Of a DNA stretch of 34,966 nucleotides, positions 4,228 to 34,487 are shown piece after piece. Positions within the stretch are counted from its first letter, which is position 1; each line of letters opens with the position of its first letter. The notes below the pieces were generated by a model. It worked only from the letters and a program-made list of their open reading frames with translations. It was not told the DNA's origin and did not search any database. Origin of the DNA: Chitinophaga pinensis. GTDB lineage: Bacteria; Bacteroidota; Bacteroidia; Flavobacteriales_D; Crocinitomicaceae. A program made the translations under genes and the position numbers. The stretch spans positions 1 through 34,966 of the forward strand of contig CALPWQ020000018.1 of assembly GCA_943327315.2 (NCBI GenBank). The letters run 5' to 3'.

Positions 4228-4269
4228 TAAATGTCATTATGACACTAAGTAAATTTTATTGTAATATTG
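4228..4269 (+). promoter_or_regulatory. Regulon operator over the -33 element of the secreted T9SS gene
   Basis: The 21-nt site at 4228-4248 has the core TGTCATTATGACA (4232-4244), a perfect palindrome about its centre, with CTAA on the right. Rightward, TATG (4238-4241) could serve as the -33 box, followed after 20 nt by TAATATTG (4262-4269, one mismatch to TAnnTTTG) and then the ATG at 4293. The site also lies 66 nt before the divergent isomerase gene. Confidence 0.65.
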
Positions 4270-8002: not shown

Positions 8003-9061
<1,059 letters not shown>

Positions 9062-15725: not shown

Positions 15726-17066
15726 TTATTTTGTCAATACGATGTATTCCCAAGGTTTCATCTCGAGGGACATTGTTTTTCCAATTTTTTGCGTTTTCCC
15801 GCTGAACAGATTCGTGTATTTACCACAAAGACGCTCATCGGTCAAGGTGATTTTTCCATTCGATGGCGAGAGGTTGATGGCCACAAGTACTTTCTGTTTC
15901 CCTTTTTCACGAACGAAAACGAGCATGTGTTCTTCACCTTCAGGACTCAACAGCTGCAATTCGCCACCTGAACGGCCACCCCATAGCGCTTGATTGGTTT
16001 GGTGTAGGTTGTTTAACTTCGTGTAAAAATCTACCAAATCCATTTTTTGCCAACCAATAGAGTCCTTGTCAAAAAACTTTAAGCGTCGATCCAAGCTGGT
16101 TTCTTGTCCGTTGTAAATCAATGGCATGCCATCAATGGTTGCTGCAAGAACCGCCAAGGCAAAACGAGCCTCACCCATGCGCTCCATCTCCGTTCCGTTC
16201 CATGAGTTTTCGTCGTGGTTGGAGGTAAACATCATGCGGTACGCATTGACAGGATAGGTTTTGTCTTTCTCGAAGTAGGCGCGAATGTCATCGATGTCCA
16301 TTACCCCCTTGGCGATTTTATTCATGATGTGGTGGAATTCCCAACCATAGGTCATGTCCATCGCTTGGTGAAGTGCTACTTCTTCGGCTTCTGCCAGCAT
16401 GAAAACGGGCTTGATTTCGTCCAATGCAGTGCGCACATCAATCCAGAAATCCAACGGCACCCATCCGGCAACATCACAACGATAACCGTCCAAGTCGAAC
16501 TCACGCACCCAATATTCCATGGCATCAATCATTCGACCGCGCATCTCTTTGCTGTCGTAGTTCAAATCGGCAACATCCCACCAATCTGTTCCGATGGTCG
16601 GTTGTACATTTCCTGTAGAATCGAGTGTGTAATAGTCTAGATGTCCCTCTGTAATCCAAACATTATCTGGCGAAGAGTGATTTGCTACCCAGTCGATGAT
16701 CACTTTCATCCCCAAAGCATGCGCGGCATCTACCAAATGTTTGAAATCATCTTTGTTTCCAAACTCAGGATTCACCGCTTTGTAATCTTTTACCGCGTAG
16801 TAACTTCCGAGCGAACCTTTGCGGTTTTTCTCACCAATCGGATTGATCGGCATCAACCACAAGATATCCACTCCCATTGCTTTTAAGCGCGGCAATTGTT
16901 TTTCAAAGGCAGCAAAAGTTCCTTCAGGCGTAAACTGACGGACATTGACCTCATAAATGGTCGCGTTTTTCGCCCAATCTGGCGTCACCAAAAGTCCTTT
17001 TTCTCCGGGCTGAGCAAAACTCATTCCGACATAAAATAGCAGTGAGAAAAGCAATCCTAATTTCAT
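15726..17066 (-). CDS. Periplasmic GH13 alpha-glucan hydrolase
   Basis: A 446-residue enzyme with a signal peptide (MKLGLLFSLLFYVGMSFAQ) and no sorting domain, so probably periplasmic. It is a compact GH13 barrel: region I DWVANH (125-130), region II GYRCDVAGW with nucleophile D198, region III LAEAEE with acid/base E226 and region IV SNHDEN with HD at 284-285, ending in a short C domain (VLVAINLSPSNGKITL). There is no N-terminal module. The start codon overlaps the kinase stop as ATGA (17063-17066), showing translational coupling. It probably trims maltodextrins to maltose and glucose beside the transporter encoded next. The alpha-amylase versus oligo-glucosidase or neopullulanase choice cannot be settled from motifs. 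Confidence 0.88.
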   Translation of the reverse strand: MKLGLLFSLLFYVGMSFAQPGEKGLLVTPDWAKNATIYEVNVRQFTPEGTFAAFEKQLPRLKAMGVDILWLMPINPIGEKNRKGSLGSYYAVKDYKAVNPEFGNKDDFKHLVDAAHALGMKVIIDWVANHSSPDNVWITEGHLDYYTLDSTGNVQPTIGTDWWDVADLNYDSKEMRGRMIDAMEYWVREFDLDGYRCDVAGWVPLDFWIDVRTALDEIKPVFMLAEAEEVALHQAMDMTYGWEFHHIMNKIAKGVMDIDDIRAYFEKDKTYPVNAYRMMFTSNHDENSWNGTEMERMGEARFALAVLAATIDGMPLIYNGQETSLDRRLKFFDKDSIGWQKMDLVDFYTKLNNLHQTNQALWGGRSGGELQLLSPEGEEHMLVFVREKGKQKVLVAINLSPSNGKITLTDERLCGKYTNLFSGKTQKIGKTMSLEMKPWEYIVLTK

Positions 17067-17920
17067 GATTTTTGCAGTTTAAGGTGATTTTCATGGTAGC
17101 TCACAAGTCCATCAATGGGTTTTCGAATGATTGAACCGATCTGCACATCAAGAGATTCACAGGCAGCAATCAATTGTTTTTCAAAGATCTGAGCAATCGA
17201 ACCGACAAAGTGCGATTTTACTTCACGGTAGTTCGGGTAACAGCACACATGGATGTCAATGAAATGACGAAAACCTTCATACACCATTTCCTGAATATAA
17301 GGATGTTCTGCGAAACGGGTAATGAAAGGCATAAAAGAAGCCAGGTATACATTGGCGTTCGGCGTCATATACACGCGCTCAACAATCAAGTCTTTGGTCA
17401 ATCCCAATTCGTTTTTCAACACATCAGAAATGTCTTCTGGCAAACGATGGTAGAGGTAGTTGGAGAGAAGTTTCTTCCCAAAGTAAGATCCACTGCCTTC
17501 ATCACCTAAGATATATCCCAAGGCAGGAACAACTTCAGTTACATTTTTCCCATCGAAATAACACGAATTTGAACCTGTTCCAATGATGCATGAAATACTA
17601 GGCTCTCCCTGATAGGTGGCATAAGCACAAGCCGTTAAATCATGGTCCACAGAAATTTCGGCATTGATAAACAAGCGCTTTAAGCCACGACGAATGACAT
17701 CGTTCAAATGAGGAGCTGAACATCCAGCACCATAGAAATATACGCGCTCAATCTTCAAAGAAGCCTCTTTTAAACCTGTGTTTCCATGAACAGCATGATA
17801 AACTGTATCTTCGTCATGAAAATATGGGTTCAAGCCCATTGTGGAAAAAGAGTGTTGTTCACCATTGTTCATCAATACCCAATCACTCTTGGTTGAACCG
17901 CTATCAACGATAAGTACCAT
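17063..17920 (-). CDS. BadF/BadG-type sugar kinase (candidate glucokinase)
   Basis: A 285-residue ASKHA-fold kinase of the N-acetylglucosamine kinase/BadF family. Motifs are phosphate-1 DSGSTKSDW (6-14), VDHDLTACAYA with a likely catalytic Asp (91-101), phosphate-2 IIGTGSNSC (112-120), LGDEGSGSYFGK (138-149) and adenosine motif FVGSIA (238-243). The start at 17920 gives the typical MVLIVDSGSTKSDW beginning; the frame is open further upstream, but that would run through the operator. It heads the maltose operon and diverges from the regulator gene. GH65 releases free glucose and no ROK-type or hexokinase-type glucokinase is encoded nearby. Inference: this protein phosphorylates glucose here, although annotation by similarity would give N-acetylglucosamine kinase. 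Confidence 0.82.
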   Translation of the reverse strand: MVLIVDSGSTKSDWVLMNNGEQHSFSTMGLNPYFHDEDTVYHAVHGNTGLKEASLKIERVYFYGAGCSAPHLNDVIRRGLKRLFINAEISVDHDLTACAYATYQGEPSISCIIGTGSNSCYFDGKNVTEVVPALGYILGDEGSGSYFGKKLLSNYLYHRLPEDISDVLKNELGLTKDLIVERVYMTPNANVYLASFMPFITRFAEHPYIQEMVYEGFRHFIDIHVCCYPNYREVKSHFVGSIAQIFEKQLIAACESLDVQIGSIIRKPIDGLVSYHENHLKLQKS

Positions 17921-17943
17921 ACAAAAAAAAATAGTTAAGGACC

Positions 17944-17996
17944 TTTGTGTCAAAAATACACTTTGCGAATGTATAGAAAAAACTTCATTAAATTTG
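17944..17996. promoter_or_regulatory. Shared operator and divergent promoters, kinase operon / regulator
   Basis: The operator variant at 17944-17964 contains GTGTCAAAAATACAC (17947-17961). Leftward, the complement of 17951-17958 reads TATTTTTG, a perfect TAnnTTTG box inside the operator, for the kinase operon. Rightward, TTG (17963-17965) is followed after 23 nt by TAAATTTG (17989-17996), a perfect -7 box for the regulator gene. One bound protein could thus block both promoters, which suggests autoregulation. Confidence 0.65.
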
Positions 17997-18011
17997 TGCA
18001 TGCACGATAAA

Positions 18012-18743
18012 ATGAACCATGAATTAAATCCGCGCATTTCTGCCGATTGCGTAATCTTTGGATTTGACCTGAATAAGCTCAATGTATTGTTGATAGAACG
18101 AGAAACCGTTGTTGGCTTGGACACCTATAAGGCCCTGCCGGGGGATTTAATTTTTGAAGATGAACCGCTAGACACCGCGGCAAATCGTGTGCTAAATGAA
18201 CTCACTGGCTTGGAGGATATTTTCTTGGAGCAGGTGGGAGCCTTTGGTGATCCAGATCGTTTGAGCAAGCCTCAAGACCGTGCATGGTTGAAGGCGGTTC
18301 GTCAAGATCCAGATGCTCGCGTTGTAACAATAGGCTATTATTCATTGGTTGGCATGAACAATTATGTGCCCCAGCCTGCATCTTTTGCACGCGCAGCGAC
18401 ATGGATTCCGATTGAAGAAATTGGTGAGTTGGCCTTTGACCACCGCCAAATTTTGGATGGTGCATTGAAAAAATTGAAGGAAAAGTTAAATGTGCAACCC
18501 ATTGGATTCAATTTGCTTCCGGAGAAATTTACTCTGTCTCAGCTGCACAGACTGTATGAAGCAATTTTAGGTGTTGAACTGGATAAGCGGAATTTTCGCC
18601 GCAAAATGTTAAAAATGGATATCCTCGAGAGTTTAGAAGAACGTCAAGAAGGGGTCCCTCATAAACCGTCTCAATTCTATAAGTTTAACGAACAGAAATA
18701 CCACGATTTATTGAAAACAGGCTTCGATAATTTCGCGTTTTAA
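18012..18743 (+). CDS. NrtR-type transcriptional regulator (Nudix domain + winged helix)
   Basis: A 243-residue protein with a Nudix-like domain at about residues 10-150 (CVIFGFDLNKLNVLLIERE, ALPGDLIF, GAFGDPDR, ARVVTIGYYSLV) and a C-terminal winged helix at about 165-215 (LLPEKFTLSQLHRLYEAILG...NFRRKMLK). The Nudix box (44-67) is degenerate: the catalytic REUxEE is RVLNEL, lacking two metal-binding glutamates. It is therefore probably a ligand sensor, not a hydrolase. Known Bacteroidetes relatives regulate sugar catabolism, for example the Bacteroides arabinose regulator AraR. It diverges from the maltose operon and precedes the Entner-Doudoroff operon, so it is the natural candidate to bind the six palindromes. 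The start at 18012 was chosen because it follows the -7 box by 15 nt; the ATG at 18000 is also possible. Confidence 0.88.
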   Translation: MNHELNPRISADCVIFGFDLNKLNVLLIERETVVGLDTYKALPGDLIFEDEPLDTAANRVLNELTGLEDIFLEQVGAFGDPDRLSKPQDRAWLKAVRQDPDARVVTIGYYSLVGMNNYVPQPASFARAATWIPIEEIGELAFDHRQILDGALKKLKEKLNVQPIGFNLLPEKFTLSQLHRLYEAILGVELDKRNFRRKMLKMDILESLEERQEGVPHKPSQFYKFNEQKYHDLLKTGFDNFAF

Positions 18744-18763: not shown

Positions 18764-18815
18764 TTTGAATTTCATACATACTTAGTGTATTTTTGACATA
18801 AAGCATGTATTTTTG
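18764..18815 (+). promoter_or_regulatory. zwf operon promoter with operator containing the -7 box
   Basis: TTTG (18764-18767), a 20-nt spacer and TATTTTTG (18788-18795) form a good Bacteroidetes promoter. The -7 box is inside the operator TTAGTGTATTTTTGACAT (18782-18799). A second TATTTTTG lies at 18808-18815 but lacks a suitably spaced -33 box. The zwf ATG is at 18837. Confidence 0.7.
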
Positions 18816-23423: not shown

Positions 23424-25007
23424 TTAGTAACCTGGATTCTGAATGAGATTCGTGTTCAACACGAGGTCTGCCGTTGGAATAGGGTACAAGTTCAAGTGGT
23501 CAGACACACTGATACCAGCGACATCCCCACCTTTAAATGGCCATACATACGTTCCACCCGTAAACAATCCGAAGCGAATCAAATCGGTACGGCGCGTGCA
23601 TTCCCAATGCAATTCACGTGCACGCTCATCAATGATGTCATTTAAAGTCAGTGCTGAGAAGTTGGATGTTGCATTGCCATAAGCACGTTCACGCAGATAA
23701 TTCACATAAGTCAATGCTGTTCCTGCACTAGCACTTCCGCGAACAGCACATTCTGCATACATCAAGTACACATCTGCCAAACGGAACATTGGGAAGTCGA
23801 TATCAACAAATGCGGATGTTGCACTGTTTGAAGCAAGAGCCCCTGTAGAGGTGATGTTCTGATATTTCGGTAGCGCATACCCTTGTGTAAATGTCGACAA
23901 GCTGGTAATGTCTTTCGTTTGACCTGTGGTGTAGAACTGATAACGAGAATCAAGCGTTGTGTCGGCAAATTTGTTCACGAAAGGTGCTGTAGCTCGAAGC
24001 CCTCCCCATTTTCCATTTACACCGTAATTTGCAGCTACCATTGACCCACCCAAAGATGCACATACCATGAATGTTGTTCCTCCATAGGTTTGGGCATTAA
24101 TTCCGTCATAAATCACTGGGAAGATAATCTCTGGAGATGTGTTGTTGTCCGCACGGAAAAGATCTGTGTATTTATCGTCTAAAGCGAAACCACCTGTATT
24201 GATGATTTTAGAACAATAGGTAGCACAATCAGTATAACGTTCTGTTCCTGTGTATACTTTTGAATTCAAATACATGCGTGCCAGTAGGAACTGAGCAGCA
24301 GAGCGGCTTGCATGTCCATATTCTGCTGGTGAAGCAAATGGAAGCTCGTTCTCAATCGCAATAAGTTCTGTTTCGATATAGTTGAACAAATCTGCACGCA
24401 AGATGCGATCTGGCAAGAATGCACCCACCTTATCTGCTTCCGTTACGAATGGAACATTTCCGAACAAGTCCATCGCATGGTAGTAGCTCAAGGCACGCAA
24501 GAAACGGGCCTCATTGCGGTAAACACGGATGCGTGCTTTGTCCACTTCTGAGAAGCCGCGTTCCGACATTTTGTCATCACTCGATTCGCGGATGAACTCA
24601 TTACATATGGTGATTTGGTAATACACGCGGTAGTACATTCCTTTGATGAATGAGGTCTCAGGTGACCATGTCATCTTGTTCAATTCAGGAATTCCTGGGT
24701 CATTCCATCCACAAACAGCTTCGTCTGTTGGCAACTCTTGCAAGTTAAACAATACGCGCACATAGGCTGAGAATCCTTCGTCAATGCCTGCGATATCGCC
24801 ATTTCCAGCTGGACCTTTCAAACCTGTCATAGAAAGACCGGAGTACAATTTCGCCAACACATTGATGTAGTTGCTTGGATCACCATAAATGACTTCAGCG
24901 TTCAACCCGTATTTTGGCGTTTGATTCAGTTGTTTTTTACACCCAGTGGTGAAAAGAATACTTATTCCAACGAAGAGGATAAGTGCATATTTAAATGTAT
25001 TCTTCAT
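23424..25007 (-). CDS. SusD/RagB-family glycan-binding outer-membrane lipoprotein
   Basis: A 527-residue surface lipoprotein with a type II signal peptide (MKNTFKYALILFVGISILFTTGC; acylated Cys23). SusD-like parts are the early YINVLAKLYSGLSM helix, FIRESSDDK, RNEARFLRALSYYHAMDLFGNVPFV (the RagB/SusD hallmark near residues 166-190), RAAQFLLARMYLN-type TPR helices, and the C-terminal FPMFRLADVYLMYAECAVRG plus RARELHWECTRRTDLIRFG. It caps the SusC pore and binds the glycan for import. It lies 11 nt downstream of susC. The surrounding amylases indicate starch, glycogen or maltodextrins as ligand. Confidence 0.95.
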   Translation of the reverse strand: MKNTFKYALILFVGISILFTTGCKKQLNQTPKYGLNAEVIYGDPSNYINVLAKLYSGLSMTGLKGPAGNGDIAGIDEGFSAYVRVLFNLQELPTDEAVCGWNDPGIPELNKMTWSPETSFIKGMYYRVYYQITICNEFIRESSDDKMSERGFSEVDKARIRVYRNEARFLRALSYYHAMDLFGNVPFVTEADKVGAFLPDRILRADLFNYIETELIAIENELPFASPAEYGHASRSAAQFLLARMYLNSKVYTGTERYTDCATYCSKIINTGGFALDDKYTDLFRADNNTSPEIIFPVIYDGINAQTYGGTTFMVCASLGGSMVAANYGVNGKWGGLRATAPFVNKFADTTLDSRYQFYTTGQTKDITSLSTFTQGYALPKYQNITSTGALASNSATSAFVDIDFPMFRLADVYLMYAECAVRGSASAGTALTYVNYLRERAYGNATSNFSALTLNDIIDERARELHWECTRRTDLIRFGLFTGGTYVWPFKGGDVAGISVSDHLNLYPIPTADLVLNTNLIQNPGY

Positions 25008-25018
25008 GGTTTCGTAGA

Positions 25019-28000
25019 TTAAAAGTCAAACGTCAAATTGAGTGAGTACATGCGTGGACGTGGATAAATGTTGTTATCGATTCCACCATTTACTTCAGGA
25101 TCTTGTCCACTATATTTTGTAATCACAAGCACATTGGAAACGACAAGCGAAGCATTCAAACCAACTTTTTTCCCTGTCCATTCCATCTTACCGAAGTTAT
25201 ACCCAAGATTTATATAATCCAAACGAAGGAAGTTCGCTTTTTCCAAATAATGGTCGCTCAACAACTGACGCTCTGTAGTTTTTTGGAATTGTTCGTTGTA
25301 GTACAACTGTGAAATATTACTCAGGTATTGTTGTGTTCCATTCACGGATTGAAATGTTGCGTTGTTGGAGTGAATGTTGTTGTAGATGTATCCACCCAAC
25401 TCGCTGCGCATGGAAAGTCCTACATACCATTTTTTGTAGCTAAAGTTTAAAGTCATTCCGAGGAATACGTTTGGTGCAGCTTTGTGTGAAATGTAACGGT
25501 CGTCGATATTGATTACTCCATCGCCATTGCGGTCTACAAATGCATCCAAATCCGTGTATTTTGTACCCGTTGGATTGGCAGGATCAATCGGTGATCCCGA
25601 CTCAATTGGACTTCCATTGGCGTCGTACTTTTGCTCGTACACGAAGTAAGAGAAGGTTGGATTGCCCAATTGGTGAACTTGCACAGTGTTTCCAATTCCT
25701 CCAGAAATCCCGCCCACCAAAATTCCTGGGCTATTAGGATCATTTACCTGAGATAGTTTCAACACGGTATTCTTGTTGTAGGTACCATTTACCATGATGT
25801 CGAAACGCATGTCCTTTTTTGCAATTACACCGATATTCGTGCTCACTTCAATTCCTTTATTGTTCATACTTCCCACATTCGTTAAAATCTGATTGGTGAA
25901 GTTTGACCCTGCAGGAACAGGAACAGTTGCCAAAAGGTCTGTTGTTGTTTTCGTGTACAAATCAATCGAACCACTGATGCGGTCTTTTAAGAAGCCAAAG
26001 TCAAGTCCGACATTATAACTTGCCGTTTGCTCCCATTTCAAATTTGCATCAAATCCTCCTGGACGGAATACCGTGTAGTATTGTCCACCAAAAGCATATT
26101 GTGCACTAGTCGCTCCTTGATAGTAGTTTGAAATGTAGGCGTAATCACCGATCCCATCTTGCTGCCCCGTAACCCCATAACCCCCGCGAATTTTCAAAAG
26201 GTTTAATCCTTTGATGCTTTTCATAAATTCTTCGTTGGTTATAATCCACGCTGCAGAAACAGATGGGAAAAGACCCCAACGGGTATCGGGACTGAAACGA
26301 GAAGACCCATCGCGACGAAGTACAGCATTGAACACATACTTATTGTTGAAGGTGTAAATCAAACGACCGTAAAAAGAAAGCAATGCATTCTTCGTATAGA
26401 ATGGATTTGCTTCAGCAACTTGAATCACTGAATCAGGCTTCCCTAAACTGTACGTTGCGTTATTTGGACTTGAAGTGTACCAATCTTGGTATGAATACCC
26501 AAGTGTGACATCCACCAAGTGTTTTGATTTTTTTTCTCCGTTGTTGAAATTCGCGTAAGCTTCTAACAACTTGTTTCCTTTCGTTTGGCGGTATTGGCTA
26601 TAACTTCCTAAAGAAAAATAACCAGATGCAGAGTTGACAGGAACTGTTACACTACCTGATCCTTCGGATTGGTCAGTACCAGCATTCACAACAACTTTAA
26701 CCATTGGGAAGAAATGAAGCTTGTAAGACAGTTTCACATTCCCAATCAAACGATTTACCTTGCTCACATCTTCTCGAGAGTAGAGTAATCCAACTGGATT
26801 TTTTGGTGCCAAAGTCACAGGTTTACTGCCGTCCATCCACTCGTAATAGTTGTTGATTCCAGCAGTGTCATTCACAGGTTTTGTTGGATCGAAATACGCT
26901 GCACCCAATGCACCTCTGTTGGCAAAGAAATTTTGTGTATGTACAATTCGGGTGTTCAATTCCACTTGTAAATGCTTGTCGAAGAAGGATGGTGTCATGC
27001 TCAATGAAGCAGATGTTCTGTTGAAGAGGTCACGACGAAGCAATCCATTTTCGTTGCGATTTCCCATGGATAAGCGGTATGGTAAATTCTTTATTCCTCC
27101 GGTTACTGAAGCGTTGTTGTCGGTGACAAAAGCATTGTGGAAGACTTGACGTTGCCAGTCTGTACTGGCTGTACCCAACAAAGCTGCTTGTGTTGCTGTT
27201 CCGTTTGTTGTAATCAAATTGCGGTATTCATCAGCACTTAATACATTGGCATATTTTGCTACCGTAGAAAGCGATTGCTTCGTATCGACAACCACAGTGA
27301 CTTTATCATTAAGTCCTGTTCCTTTTTTCGTTGTAATGAGAATCACACCATTGGCTCCTCTCGAACCGTAAATGGCTGTTGCGGAGGCATCTTTCAGGAT
27401 AACAAAAGATGCGATATCATTTGGATTAATTAGTGACAAGGGGCTAGACGCACCGGAGATTCCTCCGTTGTCCAAGGGAACACCATCCACAACAATCAAT
27501 GGATCGTTGCTCGCATTGATGGATGTTCCACCGCGCAAACGAATGGTACTACCTGAACCTGGTGCCCCATCGTTCGAGTTTACTTTAACCCCTGCGGCTT
27601 TCCCCATGATGAGCTGTTCTGGTGTTGATACCGATCCTTGAACGAAATTCTTGTCGGTCAAAACCGATGCAGAACCTGTCATGTCGGTGGTGCGAGTTGT
27701 ACCGTAGCCAATCACGACCATTTCATCAATTTCTTGCACAGCAGAAACAAGAACGGCATCAGAAATCAATGTTTGATTCGCACTTAAGGTAATTGACCGT
27801 GTCACCGTAGTGAATCCTGACGATCGGAAAATCAATTTGTAATCACCTGCAGGGACATTCGTAATGAAATAATACCCTTTGTCGTTTGTCAAAGCCCCTC
27901 TAGATTGTCCTTCGAGAATGACTGATGCATTGTACATGGGTTGATTCAAAGAGTCTGTTACGGTACCTTTGATCGTAGCTCCTTGAGCAAGCGCTTCAGT

Positions 28001-28054
28001 GCTTGTCATTGCGACAAAAGCCAACGATAGCGCAGTAAGTACTGATTTTAGCAT
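25019..28054 (-). CDS. SusC/RagA-family TonB-dependent outer-membrane transporter
   Basis: A 1011-residue TonB-linked porin. It has a signal peptide (residues 1-23) and a carboxypeptidase-regulatory-like domain (about 25-105, [22 protein letters not shown]). The TonB-box region [11 protein letters not shown] comes next, followed by the plug domain with the SusC signature ([77 protein letters not shown]). A long beta-barrel ends in an aromatic strand ([10 protein letters not shown]). It imports oligosaccharides with SusD, powered by TonB. Its promoter carries one of the two best operator copies. No SusE or SusF homologue follows susD. Confidence 0.95.
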   Translation of the reverse strand: [1011 protein letters not shown]

Positions 28055-28078: not shown

Positions 28079-28121
28079 CAAATGTAATAAAAAATATATG
28101 TAAATGTCAAAATGACACTAT
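28079..28121 (-). promoter_or_regulatory. susC promoter with regulon operator on the -33 box
   Basis: The operator at 28101-28121 has the core TGTCAAAATGACA (28105-28117). Leftward, TTTG (complement of 28108-28111) is followed after 21 nt by TACATTTG (complement of 28079-28086), a perfect TAnnTTTG box, and by the susC ATG 24 nt further on. It separates susCD from the upstream cotH operon. Confidence 0.8.
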
Positions 28122-28128
28122 GAAAGTG

Positions 28129-30528
28129 TTACCACAAGATGTTCACGCGATTTTTCTTTCCATTTCCAACATCTTGAACGCGCACCTCATGCATGGCCTC
28201 GTTGTATGAAAAGCTCACATTTTTCGTGTTTACTTTCACGGATTTAGGCGCATTTGGCACATTTCGGACAACAAGTTCATCCGCAATCGCACCCTTTATT
28301 GGATTTTCATTAACATAAAAATCGAATACGGAACGACCTCCTAATTGTTTGTAGTGCAAATGGATGAGGCTAAAGTTTCCGTTCTCTATGGCTTGCGCAT
28401 CGGTGCCATTGTCGGTATAACAAATACCATTGGCTTCAGGGATGTTTGGGTCCAAGTAGAATAGAATGTCTATGTTTTCTGGCTTAAACTCGGATGTGTG
28501 CTGCATACCTGGACAAAGCGTAACAAAGGTTCCACTTTTCACATAGGTAGGAATGTGGTCCAGGGTAGTGCGTATGCGTTGTTGGGTGATTCCTTCGATA
28601 CCATTCACGCGTATGTATCCTGGAGTGTAATAGTCAAACCATGTTGTGTTTGTTGGAAAATAAACGGTCACTTCACTCGCTTTTGGATCGGTCACAGGCG
28701 TCACCAAAAAGGCATCACCCCATAAATAAGTGGATGAGATGCGGTAGGAGGCTGTGTCGTTTGGTGTCATGTAAAATAGCGGACGCATCAGCGGAGTTCC
28801 TTTGGTGCTGTTGATGTAAGCCAAGGTATAATTGTAGGGCAATAAATCATAGCGCAACTGAATGGCTTTTTTCGCCAGGGCTTTTGTTTCCGCATCTTTG
28901 AAGACAGGTTCACTCGCCACTTCTTCTTGGGCATGCGGTCGGAAAATGGGTTGGAAAACACCATATTGCAACCACCGTACATACAATTCTGGATCGTCAT
29001 TTGCTCCGCCGAATCCACCCAAATCAGAATGCATGTATCCAATGCCTTGAAGTCCCATTTGAAGGGAAATTTCTGTTTGCGGACGCAATCCTCCCCATGT
29101 TCTGTTGACATCGCCCGACCATGGAATCATGCCATAGCGCTGAGATCCAGCAGCACCAGCACGCATTAAAATAAAAGGTCGAACGTTGGGATACGTCGAT
29201 TCGTACCCTTTGTGAATCAATCCTGCCCAGTCGTGCCCATAAATGTTGTGCACCCAATCGGCAGGACCATTGGCATGTCTTAAATCATGCGGATGTACTT
29301 CGGGTTCGCCAAGATCTCCCCAGAAACCGCTTACTCCGCGCTCAATCAAACCTGTATAAATGTTCCAAAACCACTTCTTGCCTGCTTCACTGTAGATGTC
29401 AATCAAGCCGGTATTTCCAAAATAGAAGTTGTAAGTGAATGATTTCCCCAAACTGTCTTTCCCCAAAATGTCGTTGTCAACGGCCTCTTTCCATCTGTCA
29501 GAAGTGGTAAGGATAAAAGGTTCGGTGATCAGTACCGTATGTATATTTTTCGCATTGAGGTCCTGAATCATTTTATCAGGCGCAGGGAAGGAGTCGGTGT
29601 AAAATTTTAGATTTCCCATGGTGCCTTGAATCTCTTTGCCAAACCAATAAAGGTCTAAGATCACTGCATCGAGTGGAATGCTGTCCTTGAAAAATTGGTT
29701 CACCGTATATTCGACTTCATCCTGTGAGTGATAGCCAAAACGGCTAGCGAAATTTCCAAAAGCCCAGCGCGGAGGTAGGGGTTGATGACCCGTTAGTTGT
29801 GTATAGTTTTCAATCAAGTTTTCCCAAGAATTTCCGGCAATAACTTGATAGACCATTCTTCCTGCAACTGTCTCATAAACGATACTGTTATCGCCCTTTG
29901 AATCCAGATCCAAGTAACCGATTGGTGCGTTGTCAAAGTGTAGCATGAAACGTTTAGAACTAACCACAATAGGCATCGTATAGTTCATTAAAACCGAACG
30001 TTCTTCATACCCGTAATGTGCTCTGTTGTACAATTCCAATCGATTTCCACGGCGGTTCATGCCCAAAGCGCGTGCGCCACCGCCGAACAAGGCCTCTTCT
30101 TTCGTGATGCTAAAGGAAAGTGCTTTGTTCCCGTTTCCTAATTTTTGATAACCTTGTTTTTCGGCAATCAATAAGTTGGCATCGTGCCTGTACGAAACAT
30201 TGAATGGTTCTTTTTGGATGTCAACAGTGATGCTTTTGGAACCGTTCAGAATGACAAGTGACTCTTGATCTTGGATGCATTCGATGTCGTCACTTGTGCT
30301 TTTTGCAATCACGGCATGTGAGTCGTTATTGAGCGTTTCGCCATTGGGCACAAAAGCGGTCTGTAGGATTTCTGAACTGAAATAGGTGAAGTAATAGCTA
30401 CCATCTGATACCTTCACTACGATCGAATTCCCTTCTTTGTTCACAGAGACATACGTACGTGTTTGCCCTTGACTAAAGACTGTTGTTCCGAAAAGGAAAA
30501 TTCCAAAAAGGGTTAAAATTCGGTTCAT
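28129..30528 (-). CDS. GH31 alpha-glucosidase, secreted (periplasmic)
   Basis: A 799-residue family 31 alpha-glucosidase. The start at 30528 gives a signal peptide (MNRILTLFGIFLFGTTVFSQ) and overlaps the upstream GH13 stop as ATGA; an in-frame ATG at 30570 would spoil the leader. An N-terminal galactose-mutarotase-like domain runs to about residue 245. The barrel has LDAVILDLYWFG (286-297), GFWGDLGEPE with nucleophile D405 and PWSGDVNRTW with acid/base D473. A DUF5110-type beta domain closes the protein (ILFYLDPNIPEANG...YTDNGTDAQA). It most likely releases glucose from the non-reducing ends of maltodextrins. In the Bacteroides Sus locus this job is done by a GH97 enzyme (SusB), so GH31 is a functional substitute here (inference). 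Confidence 0.9.
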   Translation of the reverse strand: MNRILTLFGIFLFGTTVFSQGQTRTYVSVNKEGNSIVVKVSDGSYYFTYFSSEILQTAFVPNGETLNNDSHAVIAKSTSDDIECIQDQESLVILNGSKSITVDIQKEPFNVSYRHDANLLIAEKQGYQKLGNGNKALSFSITKEEALFGGGARALGMNRRGNRLELYNRAHYGYEERSVLMNYTMPIVVSSKRFMLHFDNAPIGYLDLDSKGDNSIVYETVAGRMVYQVIAGNSWENLIENYTQLTGHQPLPPRWAFGNFASRFGYHSQDEVEYTVNQFFKDSIPLDAVILDLYWFGKEIQGTMGNLKFYTDSFPAPDKMIQDLNAKNIHTVLITEPFILTTSDRWKEAVDNDILGKDSLGKSFTYNFYFGNTGLIDIYSEAGKKWFWNIYTGLIERGVSGFWGDLGEPEVHPHDLRHANGPADWVHNIYGHDWAGLIHKGYESTYPNVRPFILMRAGAAGSQRYGMIPWSGDVNRTWGGLRPQTEISLQMGLQGIGYMHSDLGGFGGANDDPELYVRWLQYGVFQPIFRPHAQEEVASEPVFKDAETKALAKKAIQLRYDLLPYNYTLAYINSTKGTPLMRPLFYMTPNDTASYRISSTYLWGDAFLVTPVTDPKASEVTVYFPTNTTWFDYYTPGYIRVNGIEGITQQRIRTTLDHIPTYVKSGTFVTLCPGMQHTSEFKPENIDILFYLDPNIPEANGICYTDNGTDAQAIENGNFSLIHLHYKQLGGRSVFDFYVNENPIKGAIADELVVRNVPNAPKSVKVNTKNVSFSYNEAMHEVRVQDVGNGKKNRVNILW

Positions 30529-32411
30529 CGCAGTTCGATTATGTAGGAAGTTTTTGCTTTCATTGGCCAATTGGAAGCATTGAGGTCAAAGGTCTCGTTT
30601 GAAAGGATGTCTGTTCCGCTTGTGTGTCCGAGAAATCCTTCGTTGAAGCGCGATGGATTGATGCTTTGTTGGGTAGCACTATTGTTTAAAATGACCATAA
30701 CGACCTTGTTCTCAAGAACACGAAAATACACATAGACGTTGTTTTCAGGAATAAAGTGAATCATTTTTCCGGAATGAATGACTGCGTTGTCTTTTCTCCA
30801 ATTGAGCAATTTTTTTGTAAAAGCATGGTAGGCTTCTTGTTCGGCAGTTCTACCCGCCGCCTTTTGATCGAAACCCGTCGTCTCTTTGTTGTCTTCGGGG
30901 ACAAATGCATTGACGCCATCACCAGGCCACCCGCCAGGAAAATCCTGACGAATATCGGCATCCCCCACTTCTTTTTTTCCCGCCATTCCGATTTCTGAAC
31001 CGTAGTAAATTTGTGGGATACCTCGGCAAGTAGAAATCAATGTCAATGCGAGTTTGTAATCATCGAGACTTGGACAGATTTCATTGAAACGCTGGGTATC
31101 GTGATTTTCAAAGAACACCAACAAGTTTTGTGGGTCTTTGTACAGGAAATCGTTCGAAAAATTATCAAAAAAGCGAACAACGCCTTTGTCCCAACCCTGT
31201 TCATTTTCTTTGAACGCGCCTAGAATCGCATCGTGCAAGGTGAAATCCATCACAGAAGGAAGGTGACTGTTGTAGTTTTGAATCGCTGCGATCGGACTTT
31301 CATTCTGCCAGTAAGAAATCTGTGCTTGGTCGTGTAGCCAAATTTCACCAACCATATTCAAGTTGGGATATTCGTTCATGACTTGTTTTGTCCAATCTGC
31401 GATGGCTTCCTTGTCATTAAACGAATACGTATCGATACGAATCCCATCCAAGTCGGCATATTCAATCCACCAAATTGTATTTTGAACCAGGTAATTTAAG
31501 ACCAAGGGGTTTCGCTGATTTAAATCTGGCATCGAACGCACAAACCATCCATCTTCGCAGTAATACGTGTCGCGCTCTGAACGGTGGTTGTCCATGTGTG
31601 TGGAGGTGCGGTAATTGGTTTGTCCGTAACCTGGAAATTGATGAATCCATTCGTAGGTAGGTAAATCATTCATCATCCAATGTGCTGCGCCCCAGTGATT
31701 GGGTACCACATCCATGATCATTTTTAACCCATTTTGGTGACACTTTGAGACGAGTGAACAGTATTCTTCATTCGTTCCATAGCGCGGATCGACACGGTAC
31801 AAGTCACTCTGACCGTAGGTGTGGTAACTGTATTCGGCGTCGTTGTCTTCCAACAAGGGTGTACTCCAAATGGCTGTTGCGCCAAGATCCTTGATGTAGT
31901 TGAGATGATCTGCAATGCCTTGAAGATCTCCGCCATGACGTCCTCCGGGTAAACTTCTGTTTGCTTTTTCTTTGGTGCTGGCGTCGCTGTCGTTGGACAA
32001 ATTTCCATTGGCGAAGCGGTCGGGCATCAGCAAATAAATGACATCCGAACTGTTGAAACCAAGACGGTTTATTGAGTTTTCTCGTCGCTGTTTTAGCGCA
32101 TACGACAAGGTATATACTTGTTTTTTTCCTCTGCTGAAATGTATGTCATAGTTTCCAGCACTCTTTCCTTGTGTTTCAATTTTAATGAACACATAGTTTG
32201 GATTTTCAGTTCGTGTAACTCCCAAAATCAGCAAGTGGTCGGAGCTCGGTGTCAGTTCGCTGATTCCTGTTCCGTGAACTATAATTTCTACTTGATGATG
32301 TTCCATGCCCGCCCACCAAAATGCAGGTTCAACCCGATCTATGGGAGTATCTTTGGCACATGCTATTGATGATCCAATGACTAGAAAGAGGAATATAAAA
32401 AGGTTTTTCAT
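30525..32411 (-). CDS. SusA-like GH13 neopullulanase / cyclomaltodextrinase
   Basis: A 628-residue enzyme with a signal peptide (MKNLFIFLFLVIGSSIACA) and an N-terminal cyclomaltodextrinase-type domain (VEPAFWWAGMEHHQVEIIVHG, residues about 27-110). The GH13 barrel has DRFANGN (131-137), GGDLQGIADHLNYIKDLG, region I DVVPNHW (234-240), region II GIRIDTYSF with nucleophile D327, region III GEIWLH with acid/base E356 and region IV ENHDTQRF with HD at 437-438. A C-terminal domain of the cyclomaltodextrinase family follows. The ACA region might allow lipidation, but the lipobox is poor. It lies 3 nt after the cotH-type gene and overlaps the GH31 gene. Expected role: periplasmic cleavage of imported oligosaccharides, as for SusA. 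Confidence 0.92.
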   Translation of the reverse strand: MKNLFIFLFLVIGSSIACAKDTPIDRVEPAFWWAGMEHHQVEIIVHGTGISELTPSSDHLLILGVTRTENPNYVFIKIETQGKSAGNYDIHFSRGKKQVYTLSYALKQRRENSINRLGFNSSDVIYLLMPDRFANGNLSNDSDASTKEKANRSLPGGRHGGDLQGIADHLNYIKDLGATAIWSTPLLEDNDAEYSYHTYGQSDLYRVDPRYGTNEEYCSLVSKCHQNGLKMIMDVVPNHWGAAHWMMNDLPTYEWIHQFPGYGQTNYRTSTHMDNHRSERDTYYCEDGWFVRSMPDLNQRNPLVLNYLVQNTIWWIEYADLDGIRIDTYSFNDKEAIADWTKQVMNEYPNLNMVGEIWLHDQAQISYWQNESPIAAIQNYNSHLPSVMDFTLHDAILGAFKENEQGWDKGVVRFFDNFSNDFLYKDPQNLLVFFENHDTQRFNEICPSLDDYKLALTLISTCRGIPQIYYGSEIGMAGKKEVGDADIRQDFPGGWPGDGVNAFVPEDNKETTGFDQKAAGRTAEQEAYHAFTKKLLNWRKDNAVIHSGKMIHFIPENNVYVYFRVLENKVVMVILNNSATQQSINPSRFNEGFLGHTSGTDILSNETFDLNASNWPMKAKTSYIIELR

Positions 32412-32414
32412 TGT

Positions 32415-33848
32415 TTACTGTATTGGAAAATAGGTGCGTGTTTTTCCATTGGCATCTAGATAGAACATGAGCTGTCCTTTCGTATTTAGTGGAACTTCTT
32501 GTCCCATCAGATTAAATGCTTTTATCGGAACAAACGGGTTAGACTCAAGGTCATCGATGGCCAAGGGACATGGGTTTTGCAAGCCTTGATAATTCGTTTG
32601 ATTGTTCGCTGACCCTTTGCGGTTCACAACAAATGAATATATGGATGAGGTAACATGTGCACCTGCTGCCTGGGTTATTGCATCAAGAAAATTTTGATCT
32701 GTAAATCCGTAATCAAGTGTTTTATACGTGTCTTCCAGAGCTGCACTTTCAATCAGTGCTTGTTTGTCGGTAAGCAGGGTGTTGATGCTTTGTTCTGTGT
32801 AAAAACTCGTGATGGCTTGATCCATATAATAGGTGAACAAGTCTTTGAAGTAAGGCACATTCATTAGCCGCGTATAAAGTGGTCGTGGCTGATTGCTTTG
32901 TGACCATTGGTAGATGTTTCGTGTTGCCCAATTGATCCCCATCCAATCGATCCCGAAGGTATTGTCCATGTCATACTCGATAAAGACGAATCTCCCGTCT
33001 GACGGACGTTGGTAGAGGTAGAAGTTGTTTTTATTGTAGGAATGTCCATCCCAATGCCCCGCCAGCACTTCGATCACCAAGGTGCGGAGGTAGAGATCAA
33101 CATCTAAAATTTGCTGAATGACACAAGGGAAATCGGCATCGCTGCAGGTGTTAAGGGTGTTTAGGAAGGAAATTAATCCGCTGTAATCGTAGGCTGCAGT
33201 GTTTGTTTTCAACTCATAGTAGGGAACATAGGCAGCTTGTCCAGTTCCTTGATAAGTCATGTCCGCACCCCAATTGGCCTTGTACAGATTGCCATTGTCA
33301 TCCCCAGGAAAACGCAAAGTGATGAAATTCTCATCGATGTGCTCGGCGTTGTAATACAAGCCTTTGTATTCACCATTTACATACAAACGGACATAACTAT
33401 TTCTGAATGAAATCACATTTTGATCGCGCAAAAGCGATGCAGAGAGAAATGACCGCAGGATGGATGGGTCGTTGTGCTCACCGTTTAAGTTGAGCTTCTC
33501 AAGTCCAAGCCATTTCTGTCCTTGCACAAAGCTATTCATTGAAACTTTAAAGGACTTTTTTGCCGCAAAACGGGAGGTGTTCCCGCGGAGTCGAAACCCG
33601 ACGTTAACCACTGAATCGACCAATATTGAACTTACATACTTGAATATAGCTGGATATTCGTGATTCGCTTCAAGGCTATCGGGATGTAGCATCAAGGCCA
33701 AATCAGCGGGGTCTACTTCAATAAATACGGAAGCCACTTCATTTTGAATGAATGCATTGTTGTCCGTTGGATGCACTTGGGCAACCGCAGAAACAGATGT
33801 GAAGATCACAAGCAGAAGGACAGCTATTTGACATGTTGATTTCAGCAC
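32415..33848 (-). CDS. Secreted CotH-kinase-family protein heading the SusA-like/GH31 operon
   Basis: A 477-residue protein of the CotH family, whose best-known members are atypical spore-coat protein kinases. A GTG start at 33846-33848 was chosen because it begins a proper signal peptide (VLKSTCQIAVLLLVIFTSVSAVAQ, Val read as Met) and lies just after the promoter; a TTG at 33887 would place the operator inside the gene. CotH marks are RLRGNTSRFAAKKSFKV (86-102), LNGEHNDPS (121-129), RLYVNGEYKGLYYNAEHID, GHSYNKNNFYLY (268-279) and EYDMDNTFG (291-299), which include the conserved polar and acidic residues of the fold. The C-terminal end (FNLMGQEVPLNTKGQLMFYLD) looks like a worn sorting-domain strand. 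Its role in glucan use is unknown. Confidence 0.8.
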   Translation of the reverse strand: MLKSTCQIAVLLLVIFTSVSAVAQVHPTDNNAFIQNEVASVFIEVDPADLALMLHPDSLEANHEYPAIFKYVSSILVDSVVNVGFRLRGNTSRFAAKKSFKVSMNSFVQGQKWLGLEKLNLNGEHNDPSILRSFLSASLLRDQNVISFRNSYVRLYVNGEYKGLYYNAEHIDENFITLRFPGDDNGNLYKANWGADMTYQGTGQAAYVPYYELKTNTAAYDYSGLISFLNTLNTCSDADFPCVIQQILDVDLYLRTLVIEVLAGHWDGHSYNKNNFYLYQRPSDGRFVFIEYDMDNTFGIDWMGINWATRNIYQWSQSNQPRPLYTRLMNVPYFKDLFTYYMDQAITSFYTEQSINTLLTDKQALIESAALEDTYKTLDYGFTDQNFLDAITQAAGAHVTSSIYSFVVNRKGSANNQTNYQGLQNPCPLAIDDLESNPFVPIKAFNLMGQEVPLNTKGQLMFYLDANGKTRTYFPIQ

Positions 33849-33862
33849 AGCGAAAGGTTTTC

Positions 33863-33883
33863 TTAACGTCAAATATACACTAA
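33863..33883 (-). promoter_or_regulatory. cotH operon operator containing the -7 box
   Basis: The site TTAACGTCAAATATACACTA(A) matches the regulon consensus with changes in both half-sites. On the minus strand the complement of 33870-33877 reads TATATTTG, a perfect TAnnTTTG box, 22 nt before the GTG start. No well-spaced TTG was found upstream, so the promoter may be weak or need help. Confidence 0.6.
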
Positions 33884-33893
33884 CCAATTTAAT

Positions 33894-33939
33894 TTGTGAG
33901 GCACATTGGTGAATACATTTGATTGTATCGCTAACTTTG
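33894..33939 (+). promoter_or_regulatory. Candidate promoters of the lipoprotein gene
   Basis: Two TAnnTTTG boxes are present: TACATTTG (33914-33921, TTG at 33894-33896, spacer 17) and TAACTTTG (33932-33939, TTG at 33906-33908, spacer 23). The second is 5 nt from the ATG at 33945, so the first is the likelier promoter. Confidence 0.45.
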
Positions 33940-33944
33940 TTTCT

Positions 33945-34487
33945 ATGCTGCGTTTTATTTTCTTTTTACTGATTGTCGCTTGTTCCACTCCTGAAAAAAA
34001 ACAGAAGGAGGAAGACGAACCCTTGGCCTGCAGTCCCTATGAAATTTACATCGATGATTCCGTTGCGATGGCGTGTTATTCGGGACCTGAGTTTTTAAAC
34101 GGTGAAGACATTGGTCATCAACTTTCCAATTATGTGGCAGATAGTGTTGGGAAGTACTTAAAATGGTCCTTCGAGAAAAGTGACTACAAGCGTGTGGTAT
34201 TGGACAGTATAGCTGTTGATTTAACCGTAATTTCAGGAGATACGGTGACCTATACCATTCAGATTCCCTTCGAAAAGACCAACCGTTGCAACGCCACTAC
34301 CTGCATCGACCACCGAGGAAGTTGGGTAGATAACCGCCGAATTGCGGATGCACACCACAAGGAATTTATTCAGAATTTGAAGAAGGCAGGTTACCAACGC
34401 ATACAATCAAGCCTTTTTACCTCAGGAACCTTGTACGAGTATTGGGTAGTGTTTACCCGTGAAGCGGATTTAAGAGATTGTGACTAA
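33945..34487 (+). CDS. Small predicted lipoprotein of unknown function
   Basis: A 180-residue protein. The start at 33945 gives a short lipoprotein leader (MLRFIFFLLIVAC, lipobox IVAC, Cys13) followed by a charged linker (STPEKKQKEEDEP). The mature part has several Cys (ACSPYE, MACYSG, RCNATTCID, RDCD), suggesting disulfides and a location outside the cytoplasm. Other parts are DSIAVDLTVISGDTVTYTIQIPFEK, HRGSWVDNRRIADAHHKEFIQNLKKAGY and a final YEYWVVFTREADL strand. I recognise no family. It diverges from the cotH operon; the operator at 33863-33883 is upstream but beyond its own promoter, so regulation by it is doubtful. Confidence 0.7.
   Translation: MLRFIFFLLIVACSTPEKKQKEEDEPLACSPYEIYIDDSVAMACYSGPEFLNGEDIGHQLSNYVADSVGKYLKWSFEKSDYKRVVLDSIAVDLTVISGDTVTYTIQIPFEKTNRCNATTCIDHRGSWVDNRRIADAHHKEFIQNLKKAGYQRIQSSLFTSGTLYEYWVVFTREADLRDCD

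Follow-up and report, generated by a model that had tools for sequence, protein, structure and literature searches.

Why does a gene of CotH, a widespread family of kinases with an unclear role outside spores, stand at the head of a starch cluster in a member of the Bacteroidota, and does its product still act as a kinase there? We addressed this question for a stretch of DNA of 34,966 nucleotides, referred to as the window. Our preferred answer, held with about even confidence, is that the gene encodes a CotH-type kinase that is exported and acts on surface or periplasmic components of alpha-glucan use in Crocinitomicaceae and related Flavobacteriales.

At the window end, the gene order on the minus strand is CotH, SusA-like GH13, GH31, SusC and SusD (Table 1). 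The features of a Sus-type locus are present, namely a SusC/SusD pair with GH13 and GH31 alpha-glucan hydrolases in the same cluster; for SusD, the nearest NCBIfam model is the starch SusD NF033071 (407 bits, under the cut-off of 725). The CotH stop codon and the GH13 ATG (32411) are confirmed to lie 3 nt apart, as an earlier note on this sequence had stated, and the real start of GH31 gives a 4-nt overlap with GH13. Since SusC has its own operator copy, the genes probably form two linked units, CotH-GH13-GH31 and SusC-SusD, which refines the earlier description of CotH as the first gene of a glucan-hydrolase operon. The alpha-glucan route downstream comprises GH13, GH31, GH65 and a HAD protein regarded as beta-PGM, all encoded in the window.

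Table 1. Positions of the CotH gene, its parts, the operators and the neighbouring starch genes, in window coordinates.
Feature	Position	Strand	Basis or remark
CotH-family gene	32415..33848	-	GTG 33848 to TAA 32415; 477 aa from GTG; PF08757 and translation
CotH kinase domain	32688..33593	-	Pfam residues 99-400 counted from TTG 33887; same place in genome search
Sec signal peptide, approximate	33780..33848	-	VLKSTCQIAVLLLVIFTSVSAVAQ, by eye; aligned relatives start near there
C-terminal tail, ~42 aa, T9SS-type-A-like (suggestive)	32418..32543	-	Like tails in relatives; weak profile match
Asp280 codon, equivalent of catalytic D228 of B. subtilis	33048..33050	-	Aligned to FDG motif of 5jd9
Asp306 codon, equivalent of D251 (metal Asp) of B. 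subtilis	32970..32972	-	Aligned to WDYD of 5jd9
Operator palindrome over CotH promoter	33863..33882	-	TAGTGTATATTTGACGTTAA
Second operator, upstream of SusC	28101..28120	-	Exact match
Operator upstream of X25/GH13 pullulanase-type T9SS cargo genes	4228..4247	-	Exact match
Operator upstream of GAPDH	9041..9060	-	Exact match
Operator upstream of G6PD/Entner-Doudoroff operon	18783..18802	+	Exact match
SusA-like GH13 (cyclomaltodextrinase/neopullulanase type)	30525..32411	-	Pfam Cyc-maltodext_N, alpha-amylase, Cyc-maltodext_C
GH31 alpha-glucosidase	28129..30528	-	Pfam; start ~30528 from ortholog comparison
SusC	25019..28054	-	TIGR04056 8.2e-194
SusD	23424..25007	-	PF07980
NUDIX-winged-helix regulator (NrtR/AraR type)	17841..18743	+	PF21906 3.2e-28, PF19368 1.4e-12

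The family assignment of the first gene is clear (PF08757, E 5.7e-55, 187.5 bits against a curated cut-off of 23.8). The translation contains the motifs RGNTSRFAAKKSF, YNKNNFYLY and EYDMDNTFG, and its N-terminus is, judged by eye, a typical Sec signal sequence ending in AVAQ. The description of a secreted CotH-family protein with three named motifs therefore holds. The palindrome over the promoter contains the box TATATTTG (33877-33870), which we take to be a Bacteroidota-type -7 promoter box; its location downstream of the TTG at 33887 argues against a start at that codon and favours GTG 33848, the start assumed before. Divergent from CotH lies a lipoprotein-like gene of 193 aa (33906-34487) with no Pfam or NCBIfam match, which also adjoins CotH in G024, G010 and G004, three further genomes of the genus.

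The palindrome has the form TAGTGT-N5-TGAC, and a like sequence occurs at the same place in relatives. Across the 3.04-Mb genome, the 20-bp operator pattern has five exact matches, all inside the window at starch/glucose operons; because the pattern was written from these five sites, the matches are exact by construction, and the near absence elsewhere is the informative part. The backward control of the pattern gave 1 match genome-wide, and a sixth genomic site, with 1 mismatch, falls between genes that look by eye pdhB-like and etfB-like (contig C5:5552-5571). The palindromic operator positions of the window also include 17944-17963. When up to 3 mismatches were allowed in 80 related loci (the best 80 of 579), 129 matches were obtained, compared with 17-54 for column-shuffled patterns, these counts taking in both strands of one palindrome. 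In these best 80 of 579 loci, 71 of the matches precede SusC, 18 X25, 18 CotH (in 13 loci) and 3 G6PD, the remaining 19 having no assigned gene.

Given that all five exact operators stand at starch/glucose operons of the window, CotH looks like a regulon member, and we consider it very probably a component of the starch regulon. The statement that CotH lies under the starch operator is thus right at the level of sequence, the palindrome being common to the X25/GH13, GAPDH, G6PD/Entner-Doudoroff and SusC operons. As judged from the shared palindrome and the gene order, CotH looks to be regulated together with the starch locus, and the palindrome defines a putative starch/glucose/Entner-Doudoroff regulon. 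The NUDIX-winged-helix protein is a likely candidate for the reader of this operator. A LacI regulator at 17063-18124 was rejected, as the gene there encodes a BadF/BadG-type protein (PF01869).

We next consider whether the CotH-GH13 pairing extends beyond this genome. Among 59 relatives, 18 have a CotH ortholog. Within the 25 same-genus genomes, the ortholog occurs in 9, the SusA-like GH13 in 7 and SusD in 8, with GH13 and SusD found entirely within those 9; in the two CotH-positive genomes without GH13 (G001 and G004), the contigs end inside the gene. The other 16 genomes have none of CotH ortholog, GH13 and SusD at the cut-offs used. Another CotH match is present all the same in 14 of these 16, so the starch genes are tracked by this particular clade and not by the CotH family in general.

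A lack of conservation in related genomes had been named beforehand in the earlier note as evidence that would count against its proposal; the pairing is conserved. In the GTDB loci (the best 80 of 579, skewed toward near relatives), GH13 directly follows CotH on the same strand in 63/80, or in 61 of the 77 with more than 600 bp downstream, and the gaps in the 61 measured loci run from approximately -29 to +28 nt. GH31, SusC and SusD also follow GH13 within the available stretch in 36 of the 63, and two loci (L091 and L115) reach far enough yet have no GH31-SusC-SusD after GH13. A homologue of the window's pullulanase-type T9SS GH13 stands directly before CotH in 38 of the 70 loci, again from the best 80 of 579, that have room upstream. 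A Fluviicola MAG (L086) is among the genomes with the locus. Starch neighbours are absent from 16 of the best 80 of 579 loci, and one locus is cut off; the contig-end fragment L136 was left out of the tree and of the neighbour counts.

In other families CotH can instead stand directly before the pullulanase-type GH13. The CotH gene is also longer there: six of the seven scanned match CotH, LTD and T9SS domains and one matches CotH and LTD, with only 4/7 LTD and 4/7 T9SS matches reaching the curated cut-offs. Four of eight order-level loci (G054, G044, G057 and G039) have CotH before a pullulanase-type GH13 and SusC, and further alpha-glucan genes lie close by; G043, G040 and G051 have no homologue of the window genes nearby, and G050 has only a weak X25 tail match. 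Out of 20 further order loci, 10 have a pullulanase-type GH13 and SusC, 5 have only GH65, GH13SusA/X25 or GAPDH/BadF/beta-PGM homologues, and 5 have no starch enzyme (G089, G125, G136, G139 and G081, where G125 begins just before the CotH gene and G081, taken by its length and position to be identical with contig L123, has a SusC match of 24%).

To determine how far gene presence itself is coupled, we used 159 genomes of the order with a completeness of 90% or more, the window genome included (CotH, E up to 1e-50; GH13, E up to 1e-60). The CotH ortholog occurs in 71 and the SusA-like GH13 in 74 of them; 67 have both, 4 only CotH, 7 only GH13 and 81 neither. GH13 is thus present in 67/71 CotH-positive and 7/88 CotH-negative genomes (Fisher 2e-31, relatedness ignored). 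With 63/80 loci (best 80 of 579) and this genome co-occurrence, a chance neighbour is rejected, and the CotH-GH13 pairing is old. The seven genomes with GH13 but without CotH, together with G027 of the same family, indicate that the pathway can do without CotH. In G027 (L139:3268-6528; G027:C93), the gene that stands before the SusA-like GH13, in the CotH slot, encodes a surface protein of 1086 aa with SprB repeats, a CHU_C sorting domain and a CBM_4_9 match below threshold. In three other genomes, of the same genus as the window, a second, distantly related CotH stands divergently beside the starch CotH (L043:8590-10119, 510 aa and cut at the contig end; L044:16663-18930, 755 aa; L045:12337-14598, 753 aa).

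In the tree, 91 rows form one clade (100% SH-aLRT), 71 of them labelled as starch locus and 20 as outside, and this label requires 5 changes compared with ~22 in shuffles. The tree was made by a quick method, long branches are joined in it and two genomes appear twice (L041/L062 and L042/L061), so the sequence in which the starch position was acquired and lost is uncertain. The neighbours of some of the 20 non-starch rows are esterase genes or genes that look by eye like kdsA/kdsD. Among the orthologs outside starch loci, L052:18559-19719, L054:7818-9203 and L055:3438-4598 adjoin an esterase-like gene that belongs to the same homology cluster in all three (PF00756 was confirmed in both of those scanned), and in a marine subclade (L131, L133, L134, L135, L138 and L113), CotH lies beside a conserved set c1, c2 and c3 in place of starch genes, c1/c2 looking like kdsA/kdsD by eye.

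These orthologs outside starch loci, which include a nested clade of 16 in non-starch neighbourhoods, raise the alternative of a general envelope kinase in a convenient operon, serving surface maintenance, with its link to starch reflecting shared secretion or growth control. The eight other CotH genes elsewhere in the genome fit such a role as well. We nevertheless regard this explanation as quite improbable, since presence and absence of the gene track GH13 within one genus and family, and 15 of the 16 genomes with CotH outside the starch locus (from the best 80 of 579 loci) have GH13 elsewhere. In addition, the relocated copy of L127, one of the 13 loci with operator matches before CotH, has an operator-like palindrome upstream with 2-3 mismatches, a single case that could be chance.

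The genome has nine CotH genes, that of the window and eight more on G000 contigs C106, C33, C34, C153, C79, C157, C16 and C78; some of the eight lie in open frames of ~1330 aa, and several have T9SS-like C-termini by eye. Around these eight, no homologue of the window starch genes was found in the stretches read (two contigs being under 6 kb), the sole exception being a sorting-tail similarity inside one CotH protein itself. Consequently, the abundance of the CotH family does not explain the GH13 neighbour.

Having related the clade to starch use, we turn to its chemistry. The catalytic and metal aspartates of B. subtilis CotH, D228 and D251, correspond to D280 and D306 of the window protein; a passage of PMC7821199 reports D228Q to be inactive and describes D251A as catalytically inactive. 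In the clade, D280, N288, D306, D308, E182 and K203 are invariant in 91/91 rows, and R101, K110 and K111 are present in 90/91, the last row being gapped there. The residue before Trp in the GHWDG/GNWDG motif varies (Q in 37/91 rows), with the Asp kept. The two aspartates are 23 residues apart in 5jd9, the same as D228-D251, and 26 apart here, owing by alignment count to a 3-residue insertion. A pseudokinase arising by residue loss was rejected, no row of the 91 deviating at D280, D306 or D308.

The predicted structure agrees with this picture. An AlphaFold model of the window protein, built from 51 sequences (mean pLDDT 89.5, pTM 0.83), matches the B. cereus CotH kinase 5jda (5jda/5jd9) with Z 38.3 over 348 residues at 24% identity (E 2.5e-21, TMt 0.86). 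The next structural matches are PI4K, HipA, CtkA and Fam20 kinases at Z 10-13, where the middling scores of PI4K, HipA and Fam20 reflect a shared kinase fold, not function. Taken together, the catalytic and metal aspartates in 91/91 rows and the modelled CotH kinase fold favour retention of phosphotransfer chemistry in the clade. Loss of kinase chemistry is accordingly not favoured, and the suggestion of the earlier note that this branch had left it for glycan binding or anchoring loses ground.

If the chemistry is retained, its acceptor could be an alpha-glucan or oligosaccharide and not a protein. The placement of CotH in the regulon of glucan genes would suit a glycan kinase, as would the Fam20 proteins among its structural neighbours, including the sugar-bound Hydra Fam20 (5xoo), given that Fam20B acts on xylose according to an excerpt of PMC5865150. 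Their Z of 10-11 is, however, far behind the 38 of CotH, and the route encoded in the window, through GH13, GH31, GH65 and HAD/beta-PGM, needs no phosphorylated glucan. Moreover, the characterised CotH kinases known to us all act on proteins. We therefore consider a glycan kinase very improbable.

The window CotH protein has no match to the T9SS domain (PF18962/TIGR04183) in Pfam or NCBIfam. The profile of its tail, compared with T9SS C-terminal domains, gives a weak, in-register match (hhalign prob 10, E 0.003; four control slices, 0.1-0.5), and three non-CotH proteins of relatives finish in a similar tail; two of these, in L129, are clear, and in the third, from L042, the listed envelope is internal and the C-terminus reads alike. 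The one component of the T9SS machinery that was tested, SprA (TIGR04189), is present at 2449.8 bits. The tail likeness, the weak profile match and the presence of SprA together make surface exposure of the window CotH protein likely.

A surface location is also compatible with a non-catalytic part, in which the CotH fold would bind starch or protein, or anchor a Sus-like complex, conservation of the active-site residues then reflecting folding or the binding of nucleotide or metal. Outside the cytoplasm ATP is scarce, and none is expected there for a kinase to use; in G027 the CotH slot is taken by a sorted surface protein whose CBM_4_9 match is below threshold; and the order-level orthologs add LTD and T9SS domains. 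A comparable role has been raised elsewhere, the cellulosomal CotH of anaerobic fungi being speculated, in a passage of PMC8665504, to bind the plant cell wall. Binding alone can hardly explain an Asp set kept in 91/91 rows by orthologs down to ~36% identity, and the window protein has no carbohydrate-binding module in Pfam at E 0.001. We thus judge a purely structural part unlikely. Binding or anchoring may also be a second role alongside catalysis, in view of the tail that resembles a sorting signal and of the surface protein in G027.

Returning to an exported kinase, we propose the following sequence of events. Alpha-glucan derivatives would relieve repression at the palindrome, and CotH would then be made together with the GH13, GH31 and SusCD proteins. 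It would leave the cytoplasm via Sec and probably be sorted to the outer surface by its short type IX-like tail, where its targets may be Ser/Thr residues of an envelope or secreted protein induced along with it. The best candidate substrate would be the pullulanase-type GH13 with a T9SS domain, as this neighbour is common to the different arrangements. Phosphorylation may in turn aid assembly, stability or retention of a surface enzyme complex, by likeness to B. subtilis CotH, which phosphorylates CotB/CotG, and to the proposal for cellulosomal CotH. For kinases outside the cytosol, the Fam20 secretory kinases provide a precedent, as a passage of PMC7948968 relates. More broadly, starch use in this Gram-negative order would include a dedicated extracytoplasmic step, in which a Sus-induced, exported CotH draws on a phosphate donor outside the cytoplasm to phosphorylate the surface amylase, SusCD-complex proteins or the glucan; to this tentative proposal we give somewhat less than even confidence. 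CotH kinases would, on that proposal, recur in machines that break down polysaccharides outside the cell, both in cellulosomes and in Sus-type loci.

If the enzyme is active, protein (or glycan) phosphorylation outside the cytoplasm would be part of bacterial nutrient capture, and the CotH proteins of cellulosomes, bacterial as well as fungal, which lack an explanation, would be linked to it. Position, co-occurrence and operator connect this CotH clade with one defined metabolic function whose growth phenotype is easy to follow, so that the role of an exported CotH becomes directly testable.

Three known systems come closest to the locus. The Bacteroides Sus system (susABCDEFG) likewise has a SusA-like GH13, GH31, SusC and SusD in one cluster. 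To our knowledge, the classical Bacteroides Sus has no CotH, and among the matches listed from one open-access library, none describes CotH within a Sus-type locus. Control also differs, being exerted here through the palindrome and probably by a NUDIX-winged-helix regulator rather than SusR. With the Bacillus CotH kinases (B. subtilis; B. cereus 5jd9/5jda), the window protein shares the family, the modelled fold (Z 38) and the catalytic and metal aspartates, whereas it is exported by a signal peptide, belongs to a Bacteroidota host and lies under an operator common to starch genes. It also differs in its surroundings: Ser/Thr/Lys/Arg windows revealed no Ser/Lys-rich, CotB/CotG-like region in the 21 window proteins, so that no such partner is seen among them and a CotB/CotG-like substrate encoded in the window was rejected.

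The closest functional parallel is the cellulosomal CotH, which is likewise carried by an extracellular polysaccharide-degrading machine. The view that known CotH proteins are spore kinases or surface proteins omits the dockerin-bearing CotH of bacterial and fungal cellulosomes, as portrayed in passages of PMC12484212, PMC6083626 and PMC8665504. Their role is called unclear, structural and/or regulatory, in an excerpt of PMC12484212. In C. thermocellum, CotH occurs with LTD, for example in Cthe_0044 CseP and in Cthe_0239, an LTD-LTD-Fn3-CotH protein (passage of PMC6083626), and the same CotH and LTD pairing is found in the order-level orthologs described here. The cellulosomal proteins, including those of anaerobic fungi, are attached by dockerin and serve cellulose, whereas the present clade carries a type IX-like tail and belongs with starch; unlike theirs, its gene keeps a conserved position within a hydrolase operon.
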